Source: a virus. Taken from it: a stretch of 41,950 nt of DNA. This document shows, piece by piece, positions 3,922-41,950 of this stretch. The DNA lies in the IMG/VR virus record IMGVR_UViG_3300037316_000023, positions 1 through 41,950 of that record; one strand, written 5' to 3'. How positions within the stretch are numbered: position 1 is the stretch's first letter; each line of letters starts with the position of its first letter. Made by a program: the position numbers and the translations under genes. The notes under the pieces were generated by a model, which was given only the letters and a program-made list of their open reading frames with translations, was not told where the DNA came from and made no database searches.

Positions 3922-4614
3922 TTATCCTTTCCCCTGGAATATCTGACCCGCAGCCCCTATACCCGTACCAACCACACCGCCAAGAATCGAACCAATCGAA
4001 GGCCCCTGCGACTGTGTTACCGCGTTGCTCAGGCTTCCAACGGTGCTTGCCGCGCTGTTATCTTCCCCTGCCATGCCCTCAGGGTTTTCCATTCCTGCAA
4101 CACCCTCTTCGGCTTTGACAGCGTTCCATTGGTTCTGATTCTGAAGGTTTGCGTTCTGCTCAGTGATACCTTGCTGGGCCGCGTTGCCTGCCTGAGCGGC
4201 CTGCGAAGCGATGGAGGCGTTGATTTGCGAACTAACACCGCTTGGAAGTGCCTCAGCACCTCCTCTTGATGCCATGTTGTTGTTAACAGCACGCTGCACG
4301 TTTTGATCTTGTGCGGACACCTGGTCGTTCGCCTGAGCACGCATAGAAGCAAGCGTAGATGCGCCGTACCCTTGCGGGTTGTCAATGGCGCTCTGCATCT
4401 TGTTATTAAGAAAGTTCAACTGATTCTGTTGTGCCGCGTTGTTCGTCTGAAAGGCGTTTTGCAGCGTGTTTGAAAAGTTCGCTTGTGAAGCCTCTTCATT
4501 GTTGGCAACGTTATCACCTTTACAGAGGGCGATGGGGCCGGTGTAGTCAAACCAATCGCTTTCTATGACTGCCAGTGTTGCCATGTCGATAACAATGCGA
4601 GTGTAAATTCTCAT
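3922..4614 (-). CDS. Probable internal virion protein
   Basis: 230 residues. The first 30 residues (IYTRIVIDMATLAVIESDWF, then a short YTGPIALCKG) are a beta-hairpin module I have seen at the N-terminus of many podophage virion proteins, preceding helical Ala/Asn/Gln-rich bodies as here. Residues 40-170 are N/Q/A-rich helices. The C-terminus (SIGSILGGVVGTGIGAAG) is a Gly-zipper-like hydrophobic segment able to insert into membranes. This fits a protein ejected with the DNA to build a trans-envelope channel. It overlaps the acetyltransferase-like gene upstream by 4 nt. Function is inferred from layout. Confidence 0.55.
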   Translation of the reverse strand: MRIYTRIVIDMATLAVIESDWFDYTGPIALCKGDNVANNEEASQANFSNTLQNAFQTNNAAQQNQLNFLNNKMQSAIDNPQGYGASTLASMRAQANDQVSAQDQNVQRAVNNNMASRGGAEALPSGVSSQINASIASQAAQAGNAAQQGITEQNANLQNQNQWNAVKAEEGVAGMENPEGMAGEDNSAASTVGSLSNAVTQSQGPSIGSILGGVVGTGIGAAGQIFQGKG

Positions 4615-4991
4615 ACCTTAAACCTGAATACGGGGAAGTTAAGACGCTCAAACCCCCGCCTCTCTATAAACTTTGCAAGCCGCTCATCCTTACAACCAAA
4701 CATCACTTCTTTTATTCCTGCTGCCCGCGCTACATCTTTGACCTTCTCAAACAGTTCATTTAAGGCTCGCGCTTCCTGCATCGGTGTGATACCGGGCCGG
4801 GGTGCAAGAGCCTCTATAACAAGCACAGCGTGACAAGAGTTCATCAACTGCGGCACCCCATTGCGCTCAACCACCAAGTGCTGAGCCGTTGGATAGAGGT
4901 AAACCCCTCTGTCAACCAGGTTGATGTCGCTTGCCTTTGCTAACCAGTCAGCGTACGTTTCAGCGTCTCTATCTTCGGCGGGTCTTATCAT
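4611..4991 (-). CDS. GNAT-like acyltransferase-fold protein of the virion operon
   Basis: 126 residues from the ATG at 4991, which overlaps the upstream stop as ATGA. The frame itself extends to 5072, but the internal start begins MIRPAEDRDAETYADWL, a typical GNAT N-terminus. The C-terminal half has an ARAAGIKEVMFGC strand and helix, followed by KFIERRGFERL, which matches the GNAT pattern of a helix ending in a G-F-x-R turn. The acetyl-CoA P-loop (Q/RxxGxG/A) is not clear, so it may be catalytically inactive. GNAT-fold proteins sit next to internal virion genes in many podophages, which fits this position. Confidence 0.6.
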   Translation of the reverse strand: MIRPAEDRDAETYADWLAKASDINLVDRGVYLYPTAQHLVVERNGVPQLMNSCHAVLVIEALAPRPGITPMQEARALNELFEKVKDVARAAGIKEVMFGCKDERLAKFIERRGFERLNFPVFRFKV

Positions 4992-5704
4992 GCTGCTACC
5001 CAACCGCATAAAAAGTACGAACCGAACCCTAGAGGAAAGGCCGTTCCTATTGCCGGAATAGAACTGACCCACGCGGAAGACCTAGGCGTTGCGCTGTTGA
5101 CGTTGCCTGCATAAGAAGTATACGTTGGGTTGCTGCTTTGGTCATTGGCTGCTATGTTACCTGACCCACCGAATGCGTTACCAGTAAAACAGAAATAGTA
5201 ATCATGGGCCGGATCAATTACTAAACTCATGGCGTCGCTGATTTGCACGCCTGTTGTAGCAAATAGAGGTGTAGCACTACCACCAAAGGTTATTGGTGTA
5301 ACATCAACGGTCGTCAAGCTACCCTTTAGGGTACGGATAACACACATTTCTACAATCGCGGCTGACAGAACCGTTGTAACATTTAGTGACACTCTCCAAG
5401 CAGTGGCAGGAGGAGTACCAATTATGGAATCTCCGTACATTACTTGACAGTAAGTATAGCCCGCTGTAGGCAGTGTTGTGCCGCTTCCGCGATTGAAAGA
5501 GTTCCACGGCAACTCAGATACGTTAGCACCAACTGCTAATTTCGGAACATATGGAGGAGCTGAACCTATACCACTGACCCTAGCGGACAAGTTACCTACA
5601 TTATTGTTTGTCTTGTTAACCTGACTCAAAAGATTTGAAAGCGTTTGGTTAACATCTGACGTTAGTGTGGTGTCACTCAATTTGAACTTAAGTTCTCGCG
5701 ACAT
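4988..5704 (-). CDS. Tail-associated protein, possible receptor-binding or fibre component
   Basis: 238 residues. A short N-terminal coiled coil (DVNQTLSNLLSQVNKTNNNV) could trimerise the chain. About 190 residues of beta-rich, Gly/Ser/Thr/aromatic sequence follow (ATAWRVSLNVTTVLSAAIV, SYFLCGWVAA). A coiled-coil stalk plus a compact beta head is the layout of many short tail fibres and head decoration proteins. The gene starts directly after the nozzle stop and is coupled by ATGA to the acyltransferase-like gene. No specific family is recognised. Confidence 0.5.
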   Translation of the reverse strand: MSRELKFKLSDTTLTSDVNQTLSNLLSQVNKTNNNVGNLSARVSGIGSAPPYVPKLAVGANVSELPWNSFNRGSGTTLPTAGYTYCQVMYGDSIIGTPPATAWRVSLNVTTVLSAAIVEMCVIRTLKGSLTTVDVTPITFGGSATPLFATTGVQISDAMSLVIDPAHDYYFCFTGNAFGGSGNIAANDQSSNPTYTSYAGNVNSATPRSSAWVSSIPAIGTAFPLGFGSYFLCGWVAA

Positions 5705-8700
5705 TTAAGTGACCCCAAGCGTGAGTATTTCCGCCTTGTAGTTCTCTGCCGGAAAAGAGATTTTGATTTGTACGTTACACATCTCTTGCGCGATGGGGCT
5801 TGCTGCATTCTTCAGATACCATCGCTTCTGTGTCATGTTTGTTGAACCTGTTGGAAGCAACTTCGGAGGATCATTAACGCCCGCTCCAAGCGATGTAAAG
5901 GTACCTGCCCCGGCCAACGTTGCGAAGTCTTGAGGCAATATAGCAACGGTCGGAGCGGTGCCCGTGGGCACATACTGCAAGGTCAGGTAATCCACCAGCG
6001 CGGTTGTACCAGGAGGTGCAACGGTCAGACTGCCGACAATCGCATAACAGGGGTAAGTTCCGCCTATGTCTGTCCACGTTGTTAGGCTACGGCCTGCAAT
6101 GAAACCTGAGCCGGTAGCTGCACCCACAAGAAGTGTGAACTGTCCTAATGATGTCTCAATCGACTGGAAGCAGTTAGAGCCTCCAACAATCTGACACATG
6201 GGCGACCATGAATTTTCATCAATTCTGAAGCGTATATAGTTTGTCGAACCATCGCTAATGTGCAGACCCACATCAGCGCCGTTCTTGTGCATTGCCAAGT
6301 ACGTTGTTGCGGGCGGAAAATACAAGCCCAACAAAGGGGCGACGTTAAGGCCAATTTCAGTCAATGAATTTGTGAACGACCACAACTGACCTTGATTGGA
6401 GTACACATAGAGCGTATCGCCGTCTAACACAAGGCAGTTCTGTGAAGCCACACCAAGATTCTTCTGGTATATCTGAGCATAGAATGTTGATGTGCTTGTG
6501 CCGTATATCATCCACATCTCATCGGATGTAAAGACGATGATACCGGCAGGCACACTTGCAAGCGCGATCACCGCACCGGGGAAGGTAAACACGTTGGCCG
6601 GGGGCCAAGATTCGTTGCCATTTCCAAACGTCACATCAGGTCCGCCAGCAAAGTACACGTAGTTGTTAACCGCACCCCACATGCGGCCCGCCCCGAAGCA
6701 TAGCAGGCTAAACGTACCTGTTACCGAAGTCGTGATGGGGTTGGTAACGTTCGGAGGCGGATTGTTCTCCAAGTTTATCGGTGCTTCTATGAGGATGTCT
6801 AACTCCCCATCGGGTATGGTCAAGTCAAAAGCGTAACCAAATACAGCGCCTGTGTCGGTGTATGTCCATGTGCCTGAGTTCACCGTTGCGGCGGCTGTCT
6901 CATTCACTCCACCAGAGTTGGTGCATGTTATGGTGGTTGACGTACTCGCAATGATGTCGAATACACCGTTGTTACCTGCGTTGCTGAAGCCCGCAATGGT
7001 CGCACCACCTGTGCCTGTGGCACCCGCGAAGCCATTGTTAGTTCCTGCGGGGCAGGGATTGGTTAAGGTGTAAATCGTTGTAGTCCCGCCTGCTGCAAAG
7101 GCAGCTGACGATATTGCAAGGTTGTTAGGGATAGCAGCCAAGAAGTACCACGGGCCTGCCGTAGTGTCACTGTCTTGGGAACGGTAAATAATGAGGCTGT
7201 CCGCAAAGGCATACCCTGTAATGTCGGTCTGTGTTCCTCCGCTGAAACTGTTGTTAGTTGCAGGACCAGTCAAAATAAAGCTGGTCGGTGTGCCTCCCGT
7301 TGCTGGGGTAGTTGCATATTGGAGGTTTATTACATTGCCTGTGTCGGCTGCTGCAAAGGTAATAGCACCTGTTCCGGCATTAACAACGTACTGGCCGGTC
7401 GTAGGCATACCACTGGCAATCTGTGTATATACCGGACTGCCATTAGGACCTTTCACAATCATTGGGCTTGGCTTCACCAGACCAAAAGCATTAGTAGGCG
7501 AAAATACAGAAGCCTGATTGACCGTGTAGACGTAAGGCGATGCTGGAATCGTGATGGGGGATAGTACCCCATTACAGCCATTCAGAGGCGTTGAACTGAA
7601 AGAAGCAGCCGAATAAGAACTCCCCCATGAAGTTGTACTGGCAGAGAAAGAAGACGATGTTACCGCCGTGACCACGGCTACCCAACTAGAGATGGGTGGA
7701 AAGGGATAAATGGCTACCGTTCCGCCTGAACCAGCGCCTGTGTTAATAAAACCAAAATTGACTTCCGTTACAGTTGCGCCGTTATATGTCTGTAAGAACG
7801 AAGCCGATATAGTGTGCACACCGTTGAGTGCGCCCGCGCTGCAACCTACTACATTGATTTGAGCACCGACAGGGAATTGTCCGACTTGATTGCCGGAGAC
7901 GTATATACCGGAAGGACGGCCCGACACTGTACCGAAACCAACCACCACAGGCGTAATCAGACCGGGTAGCCCGGTGATGTTAACTGACTGACCAATGTGA
8001 AGATTGTTTCCACCCGGCGTTCCGAATACCACGGTGCCACTGCCTGCACTCCATGCGGCAATTGGATATGTTACGGATGACTCACTAACCTCTGTTACGT
8101 TCAAATCTCCCACGCTTGCGGAGATGGGCGACATGGTACTGACGTGGCCGCTTACGCTGTCTGCATACGAATACCCAAAGCTGAAGCCCACGCTCGGAAC
8201 TAAGAAGCCGTGAGTGCCTAACGTGAAGGAAGGGGCCACGGTCGGAACAGCGAGGCCCACGGGCCGCACCGTTGCCGCGCTAACAGTTCCAGCGTCACCT
8301 GTTGCCTGAAATGAGGCAAAATTCGCCATGTACAACGCTTGACCCACGCGCTGAAAAGCCGTCTGCGCAGCGGTAGGTAGCTTGCTTGAAATACTAGTTT
8401 TGGCACTCGGTGTGAAAGTGTAGATGTTCGTTTGCGTGTCAACCAGCGTTGTTATGGAACCTGTCAGGTTCCGATAACTAAAGAACTGCAAAGGCCACTC
8501 AGACGCGTTAAACGCGACGTTACAATATTGCGGGTAGCCGGGTCTACGAGTGATGGTGTTCTGCATGGACAGTTCCATGTTAGAACCGCCCCACAAAGTA
8601 TCGAAACGCGAGATTATCTGAACCCCCATCGCACTGATTGGGGTGAACAGCGGAGAACGATTTACATGTAGGCCGTTGACCCACAGAGGAATGTAAATCT

Positions 8701-17331: not shown

Positions 17332-17776
17332 TTTGTCTTTCCGCAGCTAACACAGCCTCAAGAGGGCTAACTTCTTTCTCTTCCTCTTCTTTTCCGGATT
17401 TCGGCTTGTCCCAACCGTTCATACGAGCGTAGATGGTGAGTAACTTAATAAACGTCTCATCTTCCAAGCCCTGCTTACGCAGCCGATAGGTAACACCCTG
17501 TAGAGCCTCGCGCTTTGTGTAAACCGGCTCGGGCCGCTCGTACTGGATAACAATAAGGGCCTTCTCGATGGTTTTGTGCATCATCCAGCGGCCTGCATGA
17601 AAAGCCGTGCTTCCCCGGCCCGACAAAGGTAATTCTGGTTTGGCCTGGTGCATAGCCTCGATTGGGTCGATGTTGTTAGCAATACACGTAAGAAACGTCT
17701 TCTGCTCAGGTGTGTAAAGCTCCCAATCTTCCATCCGCTCTAGGCGGGCTAGTTTTTCTTCGACCGTGAGTACCAT
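17315..17776 (-). CDS. Terminase small subunit
   Basis: 153 residues. The N-terminal part is helical (EEKLARLERMEDWELYTPEQ, then KTFLTCIANNIDPIEAMHQA) and looks like the HTH/homeodomain-like DNA-binding region of TerS proteins, including the phage-type phrase on IEA-MHQAK. Residues 80-125 form a central helical region and the C-terminus is charged (KPKSGKEEEEKEVSPLEAVL), suited to TerL binding. Position immediately upstream of, and overlapping, TerL is the main support. It would recognise the packaging start. It overlaps the glycosyltransferase gene by 28 nt. Confidence 0.7.
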   Translation of the reverse strand: MVLTVEEKLARLERMEDWELYTPEQKTFLTCIANNIDPIEAMHQAKPELPLSGRGSTAFHAGRWMMHKTIEKALIVIQYERPEPVYTKREALQGVTYRLRKQGLEDETFIKLLTIYARMNGWDKPKSGKEEEEKEVSPLEAVLAAERQNASSI

Positions 17777-19122
17777 TCGCGCATTTGCTCCGGTGTAACA
17801 GAGTGCATCGTGACCATCTCAGGTGTTAAGCGGGATTCGTCATAAGCAGGACCAAAGAAATAGTGTTCTGAGAACCCCGGTCTGTGCTGCATAAGCATCA
17901 GGGGTCTAATTCCCGCATTCCCTAACACCTTACTAACGTGAACATCCTCAGCGTAAGCGTGCTGCGGTGTGCGCCCCTGCGTTGCTACAATCCTGCAAGC
18001 ATTCGAAGACAGAAGATAACCAGGTCCACCGGAACAGACGCCACCATGCAGATAACCCGCATAGTCAAAATTGTTTTCAAGTATTTCAATTAACAGCTTT
18101 TCTACGTAGACGGCTGTATCGTCATCAGCCTTGAAAACGAATTTGTAATTGTTGTCGGTTACGTACTGGCAAATACCTACCGTTTTCGCAATGAGCGAAT
18201 CGTAACCATCGCCGCAATCCAGAAAGACTTCATCCGGCTCTGGTGAACGTGGGAAACCATCCTTCGGCTTACCGTAAAAAAATCTAATATCAACATTATG
18301 GAACGCAGCGACATCAGCACCCCATGTTTCCCTAACAGCCTTTACTTGTTCGTTAGGGCCGTTCTGATGGAAGCCCGTTGCAACACAAGCAGGCCCACCG
18401 CCGTGTGATTCGTAATCGAAGGTAAAGCAAGTCGGTATAGCAATCAGAATCTTAGGCAGTGGAGGTAACTTCTCTATTGACCGACTGCGGCACCCGCCTA
18501 TGTGTGTAATGATGGGTCTGTTAAGGTCAGCTATACGGTAACCCTTGTCAAGAAGCATCTTGCTTAGAGCTTCTTCGTGGGTAAGGCCGGTGTTACCTAT
18601 CTGCTTGGCAACGTTCGGTAAAATCAATTCCCTACAGTCTGATAATCTCCGTAAGCCGGGGTTCCATGCCCATCCGCCCCACACACCGCGCCAGTACGGC
18701 TCAGGTATGTGCAACTCGCCATGTACAAGAGGATGCCAACCTGTATCACCACGCAGAGTGACACAAATAATATTGCTATGCGTGTTGAGGATGTCCTTCG
18801 ACTCGCGCATGAAGGGTGAGAGCCTGTTTTGAAACAACCAATCATCTTCACACCAGAATACAAAGTCGTGCTTGGCCTCTGTTATGAGCTTGGCACAGGC
18901 AAACGCTTGGCCCCGCCGCTCATGCCCTGCAATCCACTTCAGGTTGCGTTGCTTCCACTTGAAATCTTTTAGAAACTCTGGCATCTCTGCTTCAGAGTCT
19001 TCAAACACGATTAGCTCTTGAGGTTCCTGGTCGCATATTGCGTAGAAGCTCTCAAGCGTCGTCTTTAGCAGGTCGTGCCGGTTGCAGCTAGTCACCAGCA
19101 TTGAGATGTTAGTGTTAGGCAT
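17749..19122 (-). CDS. Two-domain glycosyltransferase (GT2-like plus GT31-like)
   Basis: 457 residues from the ATG at 19122. N-terminal domain (about 1-215): a GT-A fold of the GT2 type, with SMLVTSCNRHDLLKTTLESF at the nucleotide-binding start, VFWCEDDW (about residues 92-95) as the metal-binding DxD-like site, and an acceptor region WNPGLRRLSD with THEEALSKML. C-terminal domain (about 220-457): motifs of GT31/fringe-type beta-1,3-glycosyltransferases, namely KAVRETWGADV followed by VDIRFFYG, then FKADDDTAVYVEKLL (DDD site) and YAEDVHVSKVLG (the ED-V motif). Both domains keep their metal-binding acids, so the protein is probably bifunctional. It sits between a coiled-coil protein and TerS within the late operon. 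The target could be a virion protein or host surface glycan; the sequence does not tell. Confidence 0.75.
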   Translation of the reverse strand: MPNTNISMLVTSCNRHDLLKTTLESFYAICDQEPQELIVFEDSEAEMPEFLKDFKWKQRNLKWIAGHERRGQAFACAKLITEAKHDFVFWCEDDWLFQNRLSPFMRESKDILNTHSNIICVTLRGDTGWHPLVHGELHIPEPYWRGVWGGWAWNPGLRRLSDCRELILPNVAKQIGNTGLTHEEALSKMLLDKGYRIADLNRPIITHIGGCRSRSIEKLPPLPKILIAIPTCFTFDYESHGGGPACVATGFHQNGPNEQVKAVRETWGADVAAFHNVDIRFFYGKPKDGFPRSPEPDEVFLDCGDGYDSLIAKTVGICQYVTDNNYKFVFKADDDTAVYVEKLLIEILENNFDYAGYLHGGVCSGGPGYLLSSNACRIVATQGRTPQHAYAEDVHVSKVLGNAGIRPLMLMQHRPGFSEHYFFGPAYDESRLTPEMVTMHSVTPEQMREWYSRSKKN

Positions 19123-19126
19123 ACAT

Positions 19127-19426
19127 TTACGCAATGACCAAAGACGGCTCTGCTTCTACCGGCTGTGTGGCAGCGGCCTGTTGCTCTGCTTCCATCTTCG
19201 CCTGCATCTTCTTCACACGCTCATCCATCCACGTCTGTATCTCGGTGGTTTCCGCGCCTGACTTCTCAACCAGGAACGCAAGAACCAAATCCAGCTTTAC
19301 AAGCGTCTCTTGTGTCTTCTGGATAACACCCGCTGTCTCATCAAATACCTTTTGGGCCTCTGCCCGCGTCAATGGGCCGTTCCAATACCGCTCACGGTTG
19401 TGAGCTAATCTCTGTGCATCACTCAT
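19127..19426 (-). CDS. Small coiled-coil protein upstream of the glycosyltransferase
   Basis: 99 residues. Almost entirely helical: NRERYWNGPLTRAEAQKVFD, then TQETLVKLDLVLAFLVEK with heptad spacing, and a charged C-terminal coil DERVKKMQAKMEAEQQAAAT. There is no membrane segment or signal peptide. It overlaps the end of the DUF5317-like gene by 8 nt and ends 4 nt before the glycosyltransferase ATG. Function unknown; the tight spacing links it to these genes. Confidence 0.55.
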   Translation of the reverse strand: MSDAQRLAHNRERYWNGPLTRAEAQKVFDETAGVIQKTQETLVKLDLVLAFLVEKSGAETTEIQTWMDERVKKMQAKMEAEQQAAATQPVEAEPSLVIA

Positions 19427-23397: not shown

Positions 23398-23425
23398 CAG
23401 CATGCGAACAAGAATGGGTCGCAAA

Positions 23426-23545
23426 GGAGAAATCACCATGGCAGTAGATTACTTAACAAAAGGAGTGGCGCAAAAGAACACCAATGGAGAAATCACCATG
23501 GCAGTAAATTACTTAACAAAAGGAGTGGCGCAAAAGAACACCAAT
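23426..23545 (+). repeat. 60-bp tandem duplication containing RBS and start codon
   Basis: Unit 1 (23426-23485) and unit 2 (23486-23545) differ at one base (GTAGATT against GTAAATT). Each unit includes GGAGAAATCACCATGG, so the ribosome-binding site and start codon exist twice in the same frame. A degenerate third copy begins GGAAAAATC at 23546. Confidence 0.9.
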
Positions 23546-23746
23546 GGAAAAATCTCTTGGAAGCTTACAGGCGATGCGTATGCGCACGAAATGCAGTGCT
23601 TGCAAACGAAAATTCATACGCTTGAGGCTCGTTTGGTGGACTTGAAAGAAGAGCGCGATTTTATGCTCACACACATCCTCAAAGCAGTAGGGGCGTTGAA
23701 GGGTCTTCCTGAACCCACTCGTCCCAAATTGCAAGAACCATCCTAA
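23438..23746 (+). CDS. Small coiled-coil protein with duplicated N-terminus
   Basis: 102 residues from the ATG at 23438 (GGAG 8 nt upstream); an equally good internal start at 23498 would give 82 residues. The 20-residue unit MAVDYLTKGVAQKNTNGEIT is present twice with D to N in the second copy, caused by the 60-bp duplication. The unit ends before KISWKLTGDAYAHEM. The rest is a coiled coil (LQTKIHTLEARLVDLKEERD) and a helix (FMLTHILKAVGALKGL). It lies 40 nt after the ParB-like gene and just before a strong terminator. Function unknown. Confidence 0.6.
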   Translation: MAVDYLTKGVAQKNTNGEITMAVNYLTKGVAQKNTNGKISWKLTGDAYAHEMQCLQTKIHTLEARLVDLKEERDFMLTHILKAVGALKGLPEPTRPKLQEPS

Positions 23747-26600: not shown

Positions 26601-27107
26601 ATGTTAATCAATGGTAAAGAAGTTTCGATTGCCCCAGAAGCGGACCTGAGCTGCGCGGACCTGCGCGACGCGGACCTGCGCGGCGCGGACCTGAGCGGCA
26701 CGAGCCTGCGCGGCGCGGACCTGAGCTGCGCGGACCTGCGCGGCGCGAACCTGAGCGGCGCGAGCCTGCGCGGCGCGGACCTGAGCTGCGCGAACCTGCG
26801 CGGCGTGAACCTGCGCGGCGTGAACCTGCGCGGCGCGAACCTGCGCGGCGTGAACCTGAGCTGCGCGAACCTGCCTTCAGGTTTCAAAGTGTGTCGCATG
26901 GACTTTGGTGGTTGGTCAATTCTTGTTTTGCCACTGACAACCACCATCGGTTGCCAGACTCACAAAAATGAAGACTGGTTAAGGTGGACACCTGAAGACG
27001 TGAGTTACTTTGCTGAAGGTGCCAAAGAATACTGGTCACGACACAGAGAATCCATTTGCGCTGTTATACGCGACGTGATGGGGGCAAGTAAAAGAGAGGT
27101 GTTATGA
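26601..27107 (+). CDS. Pentapeptide-repeat protein
   Basis: 168 residues. Residues 14-93 are 16 uninterrupted pentapeptides of the form A(D/N)L(R/S)(G/C), expected to fold as about four turns of a right-handed quadrilateral beta-helix. The C-terminal 75 residues form a separate domain with [20 protein letters not shown] and [20 protein letters not shown], a tail I recall from other phage pentapeptide proteins. Related folds (MfpA, Qnr) mimic DNA and bind gyrase; whether this short solenoid does so is unknown. The repeat DNA (26640-26879) is very GC-rich and uses almost one codon set, unlike flanking genes. Confidence 0.8.
26640..26879 (+). repeat. 15-bp tandem array coding the pentapeptides
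   Basis: Sixteen near-identical 15-bp units such as GCGGACCTGCGCGGC, with a visible 60-bp higher-order period (two successive blocks of four units with the order [20 protein letters not shown] and its variant). The homogeneity at DNA level points to recent expansion or gene conversion. Confidence 0.85.
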
Positions 27108-35826: not shown

Positions 35827-36645
35827 ATGACCATACGAATATACCAAGGTGATTGTCTTGAGGTGATGAAACAACTCCATTCAGGCAGTGTTGATTTAGT
35901 GTTGTGTGATCTTCCTTATGGAACTACCCAAAACAAATGGGATGTGGTTATCCCATTTGCTTCTTTGTGGTCTAACTATTTACGTGTAGGGAAAGAATCT
36001 GCCGCCTTTTGCTTCACAGCCTCACAACCATTTTCCTCTGCTCTGGTAATGAGCAATCCGAAAATATTCCGACACGAATGGGTGTGGATTAAGAACAGAG
36101 GAAGCAATTTTGCTAACACCGTGCGTGAACCGTTTAAGGAGCATGAAGTGGTGTTGTGCTTCAGTCGTGGTAAATGGACATACAACAAACAGATGCAAGA
36201 GCGCACCGGGAGAGGTGTATCACTAATCGGTAAGCGTGTTGGTGTAGGTAAATCGGAGCGCCCCGGAATGGGGCGCCCAATGATGGAGTTCAAGGAAACG
36301 GAATCACTTTCTGAGCTTCGTGTTCCTTCCTCATGGCAAAAATTTAACACTCAAGTTGGTTTACATCCCACACAGAAGCCCGTTGCGCTGATGGAATACC
36401 TCATCAAGACTTACACCAACGAAGGTGATACGGTGCTTGATAACTGCATGGGGTCGGGCACAACGGGGGTTGCTTGCGTTAACACAGGCCGCAACTTCAT
36501 TGGGATTGAAAAAGACCCAACATACTTTGAGATTTGCAAGCAGCGCATCGTAGGTGCTGAAGTCGTTACCGTAGCACCATCTGCACCTGTGGATGTGTGC
36601 CTTTCACACAAACAAGAGAACTGTTCGCGGTGCTCCATTGGCTAA
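35827..36645 (+). CDS. Orphan DNA N6-adenine or N4-cytosine methyltransferase
   Basis: 272 residues. Order of motifs is that of the beta class: N-terminal motif IV LVLCDLPYGTTQNKWD (about 23-38, DPPY replaced by DLPY), then HEWVWIKNRGSNFANT, a variable target-recognition stretch, and motif I DNCMGSGTTGVACVNTGR (about 205-222, S-adenosylmethionine site) with FIGIEKDP. No restriction nuclease is adjacent, so it is an orphan enzyme that may mask phage DNA from host restriction or mark it for packaging or replication. The ATG has no ribosome-binding site and follows the terminator by 8 nt; a poor promoter match (TTGTAA at 35794, TTTTAT at 35815, 6 nt before the ATG) might make it leaderless too. 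Confidence 0.8.
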   Translation: MTIRIYQGDCLEVMKQLHSGSVDLVLCDLPYGTTQNKWDVVIPFASLWSNYLRVGKESAAFCFTASQPFSSALVMSNPKIFRHEWVWIKNRGSNFANTVREPFKEHEVVLCFSRGKWTYNKQMQERTGRGVSLIGKRVGVGKSERPGMGRPMMEFKETESLSELRVPSSWQKFNTQVGLHPTQKPVALMEYLIKTYTNEGDTVLDNCMGSGTTGVACVNTGRNFIGIEKDPTYFEICKQRIVGAEVVTVAPSAPVDVCLSHKQENCSRCSIG

Positions 36646-38590
36646 AGCTAAGGTGTTAAAGGGTCAATACTTCCTGTTTGGTAACACAGGCGAAGTGTCT
36701 AACTGGAAACCCCCATCAGAGTTGCCGAACCTTGAGGGTGTTAAAGAGATAGCATTCGACACCGAAACCACCGGCAAAGACAAACGTAAAGATACCCCCA
36801 TCGGCTTCTCTTGCTGCACCTCTGATGGGGTGAAGTTCTATGCACCGTGGGGCCATGCCGGGGGAAACCTCAACCCAGAGAACGTGAAGGCGTGGGCGAA
36901 AGAGCAATTACGAAACAAGAAGCTCATTGGCTGTAACATCGGCTTCGATGCTGAGATGATGCGCCGTTGGGGTGTAGACCTGGAAGCACAAGGAAACCAA
37001 CTTTATGATATATCGCATGGTGCTGCTCTACTTAACGAGAATAGAACTAGCGGGTTTGGTTTGTCTGATCTTGGTATGGAGTATTGTGCTCGTCCGAAGT
37101 TGGATGAAGGACTAGATAAAAGCAGGATGTCTGACTATCACTCTTCAATGGTCGGAACCTACGCGGAAGAAGACGCTGCTCTAACATGGGATGTGTACGC
37201 GGCACAACGGCCCCTGATTGAGAAAGACCAGCTAGGGAAGGTTGACGACCTAGAATCAAAGCTCATTTGGCCTAACAACCACATGGAGCGGTCAGGCGCA
37301 CGGCTTGATGTACCAAAGCTAGAGCAGTTCGGGTTAGACCTACAGAATGAGCTATCAGCGCTAACCATGCGAATTTGGGCCGCGACCGGGGTGCGCCTTG
37401 ACCCCAACAAGGTTGATTCATGGGATAGGCTCTTTATTCAGATGGGCCGTGATCCTAACAAGGTGATGAATGAGAAGCACCAACTGGTGTCTTCCTATAC
37501 CGAAGACTTCCTGAAGAAGTTCACAGATGAGCACACCGTTGCGGGCCTGCGTTGCAGGCGGCTGTTATCGCTCAAGTCTAAGTACCTTGACAAGTACGAG
37601 CACACCAGGAGGGGTGACTTCCTTCCGTTTGACCTGTTCCAACTTCGGGCCGGGGAAGAAGAGAAGGGCACCGTGGTGGGCCGCTACTCATCAGCCCGCG
37701 TCAACATTCAACAGGTTTTCAAGGTTGAAAACCAGGTAAAGAGGTTCGGTGACGGTTACATCATCCGTGAGTTGATGATACCTGACGATGGCTATGAGAT
37801 GTTTGCTTGGGACGGCTCACAGCTTCAGTTTAGGTTGTTCGCTCACCTCTCCCAAGATAAGGACATCATCAGGGCTTACCACGACGGTTATAACAGGTGG
37901 AGGGCAGGCGGTAAAGACGTTGACTTTCACCAGATGGTTGCAGACCTGTTCCATCTCAGCCGACAGAACGCAAAGACTAACAACTTCGCGTTGGTGATGG
38001 GGATGGGCCGCGCACACCTCTCTTCTAACATCGGCAAGGCATGTGATTGCCAGAGTGAAACGTATTGGAAGTATGTTGAGGGCCGTGACTTCGACCCCAC
38101 CAAAGACTTCTCCAACAATGAGAACCATGCGGAGAACTGCCCCGCCGTGGAAGCAAACAAGATGGTGGATGAGTATGAGGCTTCTTTCCCATCGGCAAAG
38201 AAGACTATGGAAATGGTTGTAAAGTTTGCGAAGAAGAACGGTTTTGTACCTACCTTGTTAGGCAGGCGAAGACGTTACGCAGATAGCGAGTATCGCGGTG
38301 GGTTAAAGCAGAAGACGCGCTATTACAAGGCTCTAGCCTCCTGGTTGCAGGGGTCTGAGGCCGACATCGTAAAGAGCAAGATTCTGAGGGTTTACAACGA
38401 GCGCAATAACATCGGGATTCACAAGATGCGTATGCCTGTACACGATGAAATCACGGGCGACATTGACCCTGACCCAAAATGGAAGGTGTTAGCGCGTGAG
38501 GTGTTAAACATTCAAGAGATACCGTGCCGTGTTCCGATTACATGGGCCGATGAGTACGGTGCAAATTGGAGGGAGTGCAGTGGTAAGTGA
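36593..38590 (+). CDS. Family A DNA polymerase with 3'-5' exonuclease
   Basis: 665 residues; it overlaps the methyltransferase by 53 nt (a TTG at 36638 is an alternative start). Exonuclease motifs: IAFDTETTG (about 52-60), GCNIGFDAEMM (about 113-123), YAEEDAALTWD (about 190-200). Polymerase motifs: A FAWDGSQLQFRLFA (about 402-415), B RQNAKTNNFALVMGMG (about 457-472), C MPVHDEI (about 614-620). Compared with E. coli Pol I: F762 is kept, Y766 is M, G763 is A, and the steric-gate E710 is Q. Between motifs B and C there is a 40-residue insert with CDC and NCPA that could bind zinc. It replicates the phage genome; no separate RNA polymerase is present. Confidence 0.9.
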   Translation: MCAFHTNKRTVRGAPLAKAKVLKGQYFLFGNTGEVSNWKPPSELPNLEGVKEIAFDTETTGKDKRKDTPIGFSCCTSDGVKFYAPWGHAGGNLNPENVKAWAKEQLRNKKLIGCNIGFDAEMMRRWGVDLEAQGNQLYDISHGAALLNENRTSGFGLSDLGMEYCARPKLDEGLDKSRMSDYHSSMVGTYAEEDAALTWDVYAAQRPLIEKDQLGKVDDLESKLIWPNNHMERSGARLDVPKLEQFGLDLQNELSALTMRIWAATGVRLDPNKVDSWDRLFIQMGRDPNKVMNEKHQLVSSYTEDFLKKFTDEHTVAGLRCRRLLSLKSKYLDKYEHTRRGDFLPFDLFQLRAGEEEKGTVVGRYSSARVNIQQVFKVENQVKRFGDGYIIRELMIPDDGYEMFAWDGSQLQFRLFAHLSQDKDIIRAYHDGYNRWRAGGKDVDFHQMVADLFHLSRQNAKTNNFALVMGMGRAHLSSNIGKACDCQSETYWKYVEGRDFDPTKDFSNNENHAENCPAVEANKMVDEYEASFPSAKKTMEMVVKFAKKNGFVPTLLGRRRRYADSEYRGGLKQKTRYYKALASWLQGSEADIVKSKILRVYNERNNIGIHKMRMPVHDEITGDIDPDPKWKVLAREVLNIQEIPCRVPITWADEYGANWRECSGK

Positions 38591-38711
38591 TGAACAGCTA
38601 AAGGAAGAGTTTGAGGAACGTGCGGCCATCAAGCAGTTTGACGGCAAGATGAAACAGGAAGAAGCAGAGTATTGGGCTTGGAAGGATACCTATGAACGAA
38701 TCAACGGTTAG
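38580..38711 (+). CDS. Small acidic helical protein
   Basis: 43 residues from a GTG at 38580 with GGAGGGAG 4 nt upstream; it overlaps the polymerase by 11 nt and the nuclease gene by 20 nt. It is highly charged and helical (SDEQLKEEFEERAAIKQFDG, then KMKQEEAEYWAWKDTYERI). Such peptides often modulate a neighbouring enzyme, but nothing specific is visible. Function unknown. Confidence 0.5.
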   Translation: MVSDEQLKEEFEERAAIKQFDGKMKQEEAEYWAWKDTYERING

Positions 38712-39120
38712 CAGCGCATTTCAAACCCTCTTCCGTCAGACTGTGCCTGGTGCTGTGGTGGTTAAGCACGCTGACAAGTCAATGATTGGTATGCCTGACG
38801 CTTCGATAACCCATAACAAGATCACTCTGTGGTTAGAGTACAAGTTTATAGGCCCCAAGACGAAGGGTGTTACCGCACAATTCATGCGTGATGGGGTTTG
38901 GGATGCTCAGCACGTTGCGGAGTCTTCACCTACGCAACATAACATGATGCAACGGCTTGCTGTGGCCGGTCACGCCTATTACATCTTTTGGGTGTTAGAC
39001 CACAGAGCAACCAGGAAGAAGGTCGGTTACATCCGCCTGTGGCACCCCATCACCGGCACTGTGGCGACTCTTAACAATAATCAAGAGTTGATTTTATCCG
39101 GCCTTGCGCCGTTCTTCTAA
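38692..39120 (+). CDS. VRR-NUC-like PD-(D/E)xK nuclease
   Basis: 142 residues. The nuclease core is VVKHADKSMIGMPDASITHN, then KITLWLEYKFIG: a G-x-PD motif followed after about 15 residues by E-x-K (WLEYK), the catalytic acids and lysine of the VRR-NUC/Holliday-resolvase group. The rest (AQHVAESSPTQHNMMQRLAV, then YYIFWVLDHR) completes a small alpha/beta fold. A role as structure-specific nuclease in recombination or replication is likely for phage genes next to a DNA polymerase. Confidence 0.75.
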   Translation: MNESTVSSAFQTLFRQTVPGAVVVKHADKSMIGMPDASITHNKITLWLEYKFIGPKTKGVTAQFMRDGVWDAQHVAESSPTQHNMMQRLAVAGHAYYIFWVLDHRATRKKVGYIRLWHPITGTVATLNNNQELILSGLAPFF

Positions 39121-39165
39121 AGGCCCCGTAAACTACTGAAAAGACATGGTGTTACGGTTCCAAGC

Positions 39166-39208
39166 CGGTTTAGCAAACCGCCGCCTTCAGCCTCTCGGCC
39201 ACATCTCC
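39166..39208 (-). other. attP candidate: 5' half of a tRNA-Ser(GCU)
   Basis: Read on the minus strand from 39208, the sequence follows a serine tRNA: acceptor GGAGATG, TG, D arm GCC with GGC around GAGAGGCTGAA, then anticodon stem GCGGT, loop TTGCTAA (anticodon GCT) and ACCG. It stops matching at position 43 (G opposite G27); no variable arm, T arm or acceptor 3' strand follows. It lies 82 bp upstream of the small gene at 39290 and 279 bp upstream of the integrase. A truncated host tRNA next to an integrase is the usual form of a phage attachment site. Confidence 0.65.
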
Positions 39209-39236: not shown

Positions 39237-39248
39237 TATGGTACTTTC
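39237..39248 (+). promoter_or_regulatory. Candidate shared operator
   Basis: TATGGTACTTTC is identical to 22169-22180, which overlaps the -10 of the rightward promoter; CATT lies upstream at both places. GTAACCATA and TATGGTAC flank this region as imperfect inverted repeats (39216-39244). A common regulator of the early and integrase promoters is possible. Confidence 0.4.
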
Positions 39249-39254
39249 GTGCCC

Positions 39255-39283
39255 TTGCGCTCCGTCGCATTCTGTTGCATGAT
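39255..39283 (+). promoter_or_regulatory. Promoter of the integrase operon, predicted leaderless
   Basis: TTGCGC (39255-39260), 17-bp spacer, CATGAT (39278-39283). The ATG at 39290 is 6 nt downstream of the -10 and is preceded by GGGGTT directly, so no ribosome-binding site at useful spacing exists. The same -35 sequence and geometry occur at 22455. Confidence 0.5.
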
Positions 39284-39289
39284 GGGGTT

Positions 39290-39490
39290 ATGAAGATCAC
39301 AGCCGCAACACACAACGAGTTCATAGAGAAATGCAAAAGCGAACTAGCCATGAACTTTGAGTGCCCTTCCGAGCAGATTTTGGGAGTATACGGCTCAAAG
39401 ATGGGTTTGACAAGCAAGGAGATGTTTGAAGTCATATGCCAACACAACGAGAGTCAGACGAAAGAGCCTGTAAAGGATTATTTAGCGTGA
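39290..39490 (+). CDS. Small protein preceding the integrase, excisionase candidate
   Basis: 66 residues from the ATG at 39290. Sequence: MKITAATHNEFIEKCKSELA, then NFECPSEQILGVYGSKMGLT and SKEMFEVICQHNESQTKEPV. It is mostly helical with a possible helix-turn-helix around ILGVYGSKMGLTSKEMFEV. Its stop overlaps the GTG start of the integrase as GTGA, so the pair is translated together. Small DNA-binding proteins in this place are often excisionases or integrase regulators; this is inference from position. Confidence 0.5.
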   Translation: MKITAATHNEFIEKCKSELAMNFECPSEQILGVYGSKMGLTSKEMFEVICQHNESQTKEPVKDYLA

Positions 39491-40596
39491 GCCGTCACCA
39501 GGCCGGCCACATCTATGAGAAGCACGGTGCATTCCACGTCAGATACTACGTGGAAGAGGCCGGTGAGCGCAAGCAGAAGAGTACCAAGCTGTGCGACAAA
39601 GACCGCACGAAAGGCCACGGCTCAATCACGGCGAAGGCCGTTGTTATGCTCTGCGAAGACTTCATGCGAACGGTCAACAGCGACACACCGACCGTGAAGG
39701 CTTTAACCGTGATTGAATTTTGGGATACTATCTATCAGCCGTTCATCGAATCAACTCTTAAACACTCAACCGTGAAAGGATACACACAGGTATGGAATCA
39801 ACATATAGCAGCACACTTTGGGAAGACCTTTTTGGCAGAGTACAAGACATCAATGATGAGCCTTTACCTAACCCACCTGTCGAAGACGTACCGCCCGCGC
39901 ACGTTGGCATCAGTGAAGTTCTTAGGCAGCGCAATCTTCGCACACGCAACAGCGATGGGGTTGACCGAATCAAACCCCATCAGAGACGCAAAGGTTTTGG
40001 GGAAGATGTTGCCAAACGGTGTGACTGAATCGTACACCTTGGAAGAGATTGAGAACGTCATCAGCGCACTGGTTGACCGCGTGGAATGTCAACTCATCAT
40101 GGCTCTAGCGTTCTTCTTGGGGTTGCGGAAGGGTGAGATTGCAGGGCTGCAATGGGGTGATGTTGATGCAGACTTTGTGCACGTTCGGCGGGCCATTGGC
40201 CGGGGGATGGTGGGAACCCCAAAGACCCGCAAGAGCACCAGGAGCGTGCCCCTGATAGCGCCTGTGCGCCTGTTCCTGGGGCTGTGGCGTCAGAAGTGCC
40301 GGGGCGATGGGTGGGTGTTCCCTGGTCGCGGGGCTGAGCCTGCTAGTCTGGATGGTCTAGCCGGCCGTGTGATCCGGCCCACGTTGGAGAAGGCCGGGTT
40401 GCCGTGGAAGGGCTTCCACGCGGGCCGCAGAGGGCTAGGTACGACCCTCCGAAGCCTGACGGGGAATAGCAACGCGGGGCGTGATATGTTGGGCCACAGC
40501 AACGCACAAGTCACTGAAGCCCACTATGAAGCCGCGATGCCTGAAGAGGTGTTACGCGGTATGAAGCTGTTAGAGGCTAAAGCGAAGTCCAATTGA
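39487..40596 (+). CDS. int: Tyrosine recombinase, phage integrase
   Basis: 369 residues from GTG 39487 (AAAGGA 9 nt upstream, GTGA coupling); an ATG at 39436 in frame would give 386. N-terminal arm-binding-like domain: GHIYEKHGAFHVRYYVEEAG. Core-binding domain: KALTVIEFWDTIYQPFIEST to AIFAHATAMGLTESN. Catalytic domain: FFLGLRKGEIAGLQWG (R), GTPKTRKSTRSVP (K), GFHAGRRGLGTTLRSL (H-x-x-R), MLGHSNAQVTEAHYEA (H and nucleophile Y). The full R-K-HxxR-H-Y set is present, so it should be active in site-specific integration and excision. The gene converges with the last leftward gene, overlapping by 20 nt. Confidence 0.9.
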   Translation: MSRHQAGHIYEKHGAFHVRYYVEEAGERKQKSTKLCDKDRTKGHGSITAKAVVMLCEDFMRTVNSDTPTVKALTVIEFWDTIYQPFIESTLKHSTVKGYTQVWNQHIAAHFGKTFLAEYKTSMMSLYLTHLSKTYRPRTLASVKFLGSAIFAHATAMGLTESNPIRDAKVLGKMLPNGVTESYTLEEIENVISALVDRVECQLIMALAFFLGLRKGEIAGLQWGDVDADFVHVRRAIGRGMVGTPKTRKSTRSVPLIAPVRLFLGLWRQKCRGDGWVFPGRGAEPASLDGLAGRVIRPTLEKAGLPWKGFHAGRRGLGTTLRSLTGNSNAGRDMLGHSNAQVTEAHYEAAMPEEVLRGMKLLEAKAKSN

Positions 40597-40979: not shown

Positions 40980-41950
40980 TTAGCTCGTTGGTGCTACAAA
41001 TTGGCGATAGAAGACGGTGATGCGAACAACACCAGCACCGGGGTTAGAGCCGGTGCAGGTAATACGAACCTTAGCCGCTGCAACTTGAACAGGACCAAGA
41101 TTGGAACTGGCAACTGTTGGGTCAGCCTGGTTAAGCCCAATGGAAGTTGTACCTGCAACCAGTGTGGCGTTAGCGCTTGAGAACCTCGCGCTTTGTGTTG
41201 CATCACCTACGGCCCAATTGGTTGTTGTTGTAATGGTAGTCGTAACGCGACATACAACAGCCTCAATGATGGAACCAGCGGGTAATAGGTTGCCTGTGGT
41301 GTCGGTAGTTAGACCCACGGTGCTTAAAGTGAGAAGCTCAGAGGATTGACCCTTAACCCATTGTGCGCCGTTTGCCGATTGTTGCGTGATGGTTGCTAGT
41401 GTTATTGCTCCGCTTACATCCGCAGCCGTTCCGTTGCCGATTGCAATTCCCGCAGCACCGGAACGAGATAGACCTGTATCTAGTGCAGCGGTGCCGCTGT
41501 TCACCGTCTGTGTCCCCCAACCCAAAACCAAGTTGACTGAAGCCGCAAGTTGTCCTGTTGCTGTCACCAACCACCCGGTGACAGCGGTGCCAATACCTAA
41601 GAAGCACCCCTGCGGGCTTGTTAAAGTGACCGGCGACGAGCTTGTGTTATGTAAACCAGCAAAGTTGGCGTTGGCAATACCAAGAGCGGCTCCGGTGTAA
41701 AACACAGCGTTCCCTATCGTGAGCGTCGAACTCGAAACCGCCTGAATAACAACTTTTGGTATACCAGTGCTACCAGAATGTCCGATGGTTAGCGTGCTTG
41801 TGGCATTCGTACCGGCACCAATGCCACTGCTGATTGTCCACGTATCGGCGGCTGAAGCTGCACCAGTCCAATAGTTAGCAGCCACTTCAAGAAGTGGTGA
41901 CGCATTCGTTGTTATAGCACTCGCAATGGTGGTGTTAGCCCAAAGCCATG
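40980..41950 (-). CDS. Tail fibre / appendage protein, C-terminal part (joins 1..1028)
   Basis: The frame runs from the window end to the TAA at 40982-40980 and is the continuation of the gene whose start is at 1028; positions 41824-41950 repeat 1-127. The C-terminal 300 residues are beta-rich: AANYWTGAASAADTWTISSG, then STLTIGNAVFYTGAALGIAN and NWAVGDATQSARFSSANATL, ending with KVRITCTGSNPGAGVVRITV and FYRQFVAPTS. The last 50 residues read like a trimeric beta-sandwich tip. A GTG 62 bases beyond the junction is an internal codon, not the start. Function as in the first part: host attachment. Confidence 0.75.
   Translation of the reverse strand, partial: WLWANTTIASAITTNASPLLEVAANYWTGAASAADTWTISSGIGAGTNATSTLTIGHSGSTGIPKVVIQAVSSSTLTIGNAVFYTGAALGIANANFAGLHNTSSSPVTLTSPQGCFLGIGTAVTGWLVTATGQLAASVNLVLGWGTQTVNSGTAALDTGLSRSGAAGIAIGNGTAADVSGAITLATITQQSANGAQWVKGQSSELLTLSTVGLTTDTTGNLLPAGSIIEAVVCRVTTTITTTTNWAVGDATQSARFSSANATLVAGTTSIGLNQADPTVASSNLGPVQVAAAKVRITCTGSNPGAGVVRITVFYRQFVAPTS

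Follow-up and report, generated by a model that had tools for sequence, protein, structure and literature searches.

The window that we analyzed, i.e., the whole 41,950-bp stretch of phage DNA, begins and ends with the same 127 bp (1-127 and 41824-41950 are identical), and is therefore most naturally taken as a closed circle of 41,823 bp. This 127-bp repeat is probably an assembler k-mer overlap rather than a biological terminal repeat, since the sister phage described below also has a 127-bp repeat, in an unrelated location. Close to a tyrosine integrase gene, the minus strand of this genome reads GGAGATGTGGCCGAGAGGCTGAAGGCGGCGGTTTGCTAAACCG (39208 to 39166), a segment that occurs once in the window and that is identical at 43 of 43 nt to nucleotides 1-43 of the tRNA-Ser(GCU) gene. 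A preliminary description of this DNA had proposed a probable attP at precisely this place and on this strand, ending at tRNA position 42; both the coordinates and the end point proved exact, as 43 gene nucleotides correspond to conventional position 42. The features of the locus are collected in Table 1.

Table 1. Features of the putative attP region and its neighboring genes (positions in the window)
Feature	Position	Strand	Evidence
tRNA-Ser(GCU) 5′ half, putative attP identity segment	39166..39208	-	Exact match to 19 intact genes; sharp boundaries
Presumed attP core CGGTTTGCTAAACCGGCT (anticodon arm; 7-nt loop enclosed by an inverted repeat)	39163..39180	-	
Block TTTTCARTAGKTTACGGG, conserved with the sister phage, opposite side of the core	39124..39142	-	Alignment of the two attP regions
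Block CAAGRGCACGAAAGTRCYAT, conserved with the sister phage, ~30 nt 5′ of the tRNA half	39238..39257	-	Alignment of the two attP regions
GCGCAAGG, direct copy flanking the core	39102..39109	-	Repeat search; weak
GCGCAAGG, second flanking direct copy	39253..39260	-	Repeat search; weak
Candidate promoter TTGTCA-17-TATACT, directed toward the tRNA half, ~177 nt upstream of nucleotide 1	39385..39413	-	
ORF of 65-71 aa between attP and int; its last 4 nt overlap the int start	39275..39490	+	
Tyrosine integrase (int), 369 aa from GTG 39487, ORF open from 39436	39487..40596	+	PF00589, phrog_1, identity to the sister protein
142-aa gene on the other attP flank	38692..39120	+	60% identical in the sister phage
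Family A DNA polymerase	36593..38590	+	68% identical in the sister phage

The integrase matches Pfam PF00589 (E 5e-10) and phrog_1 (E 7e-45), and contains R231, K263, H328, R331, H354 and Y364 (numbered on the 386-aa ORF), six catalytic residues that are invariant between the window phage and its sister, where the two proteins are 66% identical overall. Translation most likely starts at the GTG listed, since the sister protein aligns from there, and this start lies ~280 bp from the tRNA half, with the putative attP on the 5′ side of int. A search of the integrase profile against solved structures gave no match, and the N-terminal arm-binding domain was therefore read by eye only. The small ORF between attP and int has no family match and is absent from the sister phage sequence; its position makes it a candidate excisionase gene. 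On the other flank, the product of the 142-aa gene appears nuclease-like on inspection, and the position of the att region is syntenic, since this gene flanks it in both phages.

Host identity and limits of the tRNA half

Our search for the exact 43-mer covered 84,980 bacterial and archaeal species, each represented by a single genome, and identified 19 contigs; in all 19 the 43-mer begins an intact tRNA-Ser(GCU) gene recognized by ARAGORN. Bacterial genes identical over the 43 nt, for which the preliminary description had suggested a search, thus do exist. The names of these contigs include Methylocella, Methylocapsa, Lichenibacterium, Lichenifustis, Roseiarcaceae, Beijerinckiaceae and Methylobacteriaceae, and in addition Hyphomicrobiales/Rhizobiales, one Bradyrhizobium MAG and unclassified (alpha)proteobacterial MAGs. 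With up to two mismatches, the 43-mer is present in 115 of 397 family-level genomes (from the family of one exact-match genome), where the most frequent variant has a single difference, at nucleotide 6. This 43-nt exact match is confined to tRNA-Ser(GCU) genes, and chance is therefore excluded as its origin.

Both boundaries of the match are sharp, since at the 19 loci the exact match overshoots tRNA nucleotide 1 by only 0-4 nt and nucleotide 43 by 0 nt, and since the 40-nt flanks on either side are identical between phage and host at 3-14 of 40 positions, which is near background. Immediately beyond the 43-mer the host genes read TTATA(G/C)GG..., where the phage reads GCTTGGAACC... ARAGORN found no complete tRNA in the window, and we also found no serine-tRNA 3′ half there. 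The identity is thus lopsided, running from the anticodon arm back to the first tRNA nucleotide and then ending, and this lopsidedness fits the rebuilding of a tRNA, unlike a mere recognition site for the integrase.

The anticodon arm is the presumed crossover site, and this core (CGGTYTKCWAAACCGGCT) has one full match in each circular genome, that of the window phage and that of the sister. Around it, the conserved CAAGRGCACGAAAGTRCYAT block is a candidate protein-binding site or -10 region, and GCGCAAGG has three copies in the window genome, two of which flank the core and are possible, weakly indicated, arm sites for the integrase; no other such repeat flanks the core twice in the window.

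A sister phage with another tRNA half

Through its polymerase (68% identical) and terminase (81%) we identified a sister phage, IMGVR_UViG_3300027854_000001 (40,905 bp), which carries the 45-nt segment GGAAGCGAAGGGAATCCGGTTGGTTCCCCCGGTCTTCAAAACCGG in the same position and orientation as the tRNA half of the window. This segment has the layout of a different tRNA 5′ half, with an anticodon UCA in the loop CUUCAAA, an acceptor strand of 8-9 nt and a long D arm, and it aligns to the first half of the Rfam tRNA-Sec family with 22.9 bits, a score under the family cut-off, which is to be expected when only half of the tRNA is present. Our Rfam search with this family matched every genome, since other long-arm tRNAs also score, and the comparison was therefore made with the nine best matches; in the true selC genes of the order, the length from nucleotide 1 to the anticodon equals that of the sister half, and identity is at most 32 of 45 nt (~70%). 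No host gene within three mismatches of the sister half was present in 248 family-level and 289 class-level genomes, and “tRNA-Sec-like” is the proper label for the half, since its exact host gene was not found in this sample.

Comparison of the two attP regions demonstrated that they have nothing in common but the anticodon-arm core and phage blocks close to it, and that the core (CGGTCTTCAAAACCGGCT in the sister) is the only portion of the tRNA half common to both. Since the core is shared and the rest of the tRNA differs, this integrase lineage appears to keep the anticodon-arm core, with the attached 5′ half following the target. In the sister, four copies of ATGCGATG lie in a 311-bp stretch surrounding the core, where the frequency in the remainder of the sister genome predicts ~0.04; some 8-mer is, however, present at least four times in ~2% of the other windows of that genome as well. 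The ATGCGATG repeats may be integrase arm sites. Our searches of other viral contigs found no attP like that of the sister and, with a single integrase sequence, no close integrase relatives, and an alignment of the two integrases matched the sister phage only.

We consider it possible, if somewhat doubtful, that this integrase lineage recognizes little beyond the anticodon arm (CGGTYTKCWAAACCGG), that the isotype of the target was switched from tRNA-Ser to tRNA-Sec by a swap of the 5′ half, and that the two sisters rewire different host tRNAs onto phage promoters in lysogeny. Such an isotype switch between sister phages adds to the interest of the locus, and the pair, with its different tRNA targets, provides material for the study of how an integrase changes its target and how a prophage takes over tRNA transcription.

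The sister contig overlaps itself by 127 bp (positions 1 and 40779), and its first base is nucleotide 28 of the tRNA half, bordering the anticodon arm. The chance that a random contig break falls inside the 45-nt segment is ~0.001, and the break may, by an argument made after the fact, mark a point where reads from integrated copies made the assembly graph branch.

Probable integration into tRNA-Ser(GCU) and alternative readings

Taken together, the exact host identity, a single complete tRNA among the junctions modeled in silico and, most strongly, the presence of another tRNA half at the same place in the sister phage support the attP reading of the preliminary description. We conclude that the 43 nt are very probably the host-identity segment of attP, which the integrase would recombine into the tRNA-Ser(GCU) gene of Hyphomicrobiales related to Beijerinckiaceae. 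As a general rule, elements that target tRNA genes restore the gene, and here restoration would come from the 5′ side; a phage using this 5′-half version of the strategy must therefore keep the host tRNA working. From this arrangement we infer the act of integration, the position of the crossover, the use of a phage promoter and stable lysogeny, as follows. The adjacent tyrosine integrase would act on the anticodon arm, recombining the copy in attP with the one in the chromosomal tRNA-Ser(GCU) gene, and the host gene would be cut within this arm, so that the 5′ half of the host and its promoter would end up at the far end of the prophage. The identical 5′ half of the phage would join the host 3′ half, leaving the tRNA sequence unchanged, and the restored gene would be divergent from int, ~280 bp from the int start. 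With the host promoter displaced, the restored tRNA must be transcribed from phage DNA, perhaps via the tabulated TTGTCA-17-TATACT site.

We modeled this recombination in silico with the attB of a Roseiarcaceae genome. One junction (phage ...TTACCAGCAC and the 5′ half, leading into TTATAGGG...) gives a complete tRNA-Ser recognized by ARAGORN and identical to the host gene. The other junction (the host region upstream of tRNA-Ser(GCU) and the 5′ half, leading into phage GCTTGGAACC...) holds the displaced, non-functional host 5′ half, and ARAGORN recognized no tRNA there or in attP itself.

The preliminary description had added the corollary that the phage must supply a tRNA promoter upstream of the half. 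The host tRNA-Ser genes have a clear TTGCMA-17-CATATG promoter, and no promoter of this type is present in the phage upstream region, so that the corollary stands in part: the region contains one plausible sigma-70-like site, TTGTCA-17-TATACT, which is one of two sites matching at least 10 of 12 positions on the minus strand of the genome, a score expected in 300 bp of matched random sequence with P ~0.02. The best sigma-70-like site in the sister upstream region matches 9 of 12. Transcription of the restored tRNA from a phage promoter is thus plausible, as judged from these motifs.

Our search for integrated copies covered the likely hosts at several levels. No close integrase was present in 20 host records, among them the 19 exact-match genomes, nor in 397 order-level and 397 family-level genomes, and the more distant integrases found in those genomes have no adjacent tRNA within the stretch fetched. 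Prophages with the same integrase in tRNA-Ser(GCU), which the preliminary description had suggested as a check, were accordingly not found in the order-level, family-level or exact-match genomes. No displaced 5′ half occurs among the family-level 43-mer matches; a second 43-mer-like copy in one genome, considered as such a half, was rejected, as each of the two is a full or almost full tRNA gene. The lack of an integrated copy in this search counts against our conclusion, as do the missing host-type promoter, for which the phage site is weak evidence of a substitute, and the lack of a host gene close to the sister half in the genomes sampled. Neither attL/attR junctions nor lysogens were present in the genomes searched, an absence in a sample that does not exclude their existence.

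This absence leaves room for a variant in which the attP is real and integration is transient, occurring in the course of lytic infection as in cyanophages, with stable lysogeny and tRNA restoration of little importance. No repressor was recognized among the proteins scanned, and cyanophages of the same layout integrate rarely and without stable lysogeny (PMC8776855). We nevertheless judge this variant unlikely, although with a real chance of being correct: the tRNA half is identical to the host back to nucleotide 1, far beyond the core needed for recombination, and this suggests that viable integrants matter. The absence of lysogens from the genomes searched would also suit a relic, i.e., a half left unused after a past recombination with, or pickup of, a tRNA-Ser gene. 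A relic would decay and show no parallel in the sister, whereas the 43 nt are 100% identical to living hosts, the integrase is intact, and in the sister the half of another tRNA occupies the corresponding place and ends at the same points; we consider this reading very improbable. Least probable of all, to the point of being negligible, is that the half gene, which holds the whole anticodon arm and has a promoter-like site directed at it, is transcribed and acts in trans independently of integration, as a tRNA fragment or decoy against a tRNA-cleaving defense or as part of a split tRNA, since the window has neither a complete tRNA nor a 3′ half (which rules out the split tRNA), the place beside int is common to both phages while the isotype differs, and such a role has no need of an end exactly one stem beyond the crossover point.

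Comparison with known 5′-half systems and other features of the genome

Integration into tRNA-Ser(GCU) from the 5′ side would put the window phage in a documented minority, since the 3′ half is what the majority of elements in tRNA genes carry. The putative attP has a segment, within the usual ~30-50 bp, identical to one end of a host tRNA gene, an intact tyrosine integrase nearby and an extent that restores the gene, as in tRNA-gene attP sites generally; the segment ends just past the anticodon arm, as in 5′-half sites, and the sister provides a second example. On this sequence evidence the attP probably belongs to the 5′-half class. In the Islander survey, 3,760 islands with a 3′ fragment were recorded against 159 with a 5′ fragment (3,919 in total), and the 5′ tDNA islands of this survey, the same minority class as that of the window phage, extend the class beyond phages (PMC4383910). 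Another viral contig, IMGVR_UViG_3300020594_000010, contains at 4218-5733 a complete tRNA-Ser(GCU) followed directly on its 3′ side by a tyrosine-integrase-like ORF of 415 aa, different from int, and is apparently an element of the usual 3′-half type using the same tRNA gene as the window phage.

The parallel drawn in the preliminary description with the cyanophage P-SSP7 and its tRNA-Leu 5′ half holds, except for the side of int on which attP lies. The att motifs of the T7-like cyanophages P-SSP7 and S-TIP37 correspond to the first half of tRNA-Leu; integration has been shown, and in S-TIP37 it depends on int and attP (PMC8776855). Integration in these cyanophages was demonstrated by PCR, and they have, like the window phage, a tyrosine integrase and an attP (of ~39-42 nt in the cyanophages) equal to the 5′ half of the host tRNA (PMC8776855, PMC3861242). 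The cyanophage attP is downstream of int (PMC8776855), whereas that of the window phage is on the 5′ side, and the target is tRNA-Leu in the cyanophages, as opposed to Ser-GCU in the window phage and the tRNA-Sec-like gene in the sister, with Hyphomicrobiales as the host group here. Neither the attP position nor the tRNA-Leu target of the T7-like cyanophages is thus found in the window phage, which we place outside that group since these two features differ; integration is shown for the cyanophages, and the window phage is likened to them from sequence alone. The HTVC019P-like pelagiphages carry an integrase and a 46-bp tRNA-Leu fragment that has been used for host inference; the passages of the report describing it do not state which tRNA half this is, and both the phage group and the host differ from those of the window phage (PMC3861242).

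Two further systems resemble the window phage in part. The pTN3-like integrases of Thermococcales use the 5′ half of a tRNA gene as attB, with the restored tRNA under expression from the integrase side; pTN3 is an archaeal plasmid with a suicidal integrase gene that is split on integration (PMC8371274), whereas int is separate from attP in the window. The mycobacteriophage Fionnbharth has tRNA-dependent lysogeny, in which it compensates for the damage that integration causes to a host tRNA gene, with a whole phage tRNA, a core of ~10 bp and no restoration of the host tRNA (PMC10865867). The window phage has neither a whole tRNA of the same isotype nor such a short core, its attP half being 43 nt. 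If our reading is correct, the 5′-half attP strategy, seen in marine cyanophages and archaeal plasmids, extends to phages of this alphaproteobacterial group, and an exact sequence places an uncultivated soil phage on Beijerinckiaceae-like Hyphomicrobiales.

Elsewhere in the window genome, a 461-aa protein with Glycos_transf_2 and Galactosyl_T glycosyltransferase-like domains (17749-19134) adjoins the terminase genes, and a 128-aa protein with a Tlde1 domain (PF10908; 21054-21440) is possibly a cell-wall-acting lysis protein. The 114-aa ORF at 23402-23746 contains two adjacent 60-bp direct repeats, 97% identical, that include the start codon and a Shine-Dalgarno-like sequence, and since the repeats span the start codon, the N-terminus of this ORF is duplicated. 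In addition, a pentapeptide-repeat protein is encoded at 26601-27107 by ~14 near-identical 15-bp units.
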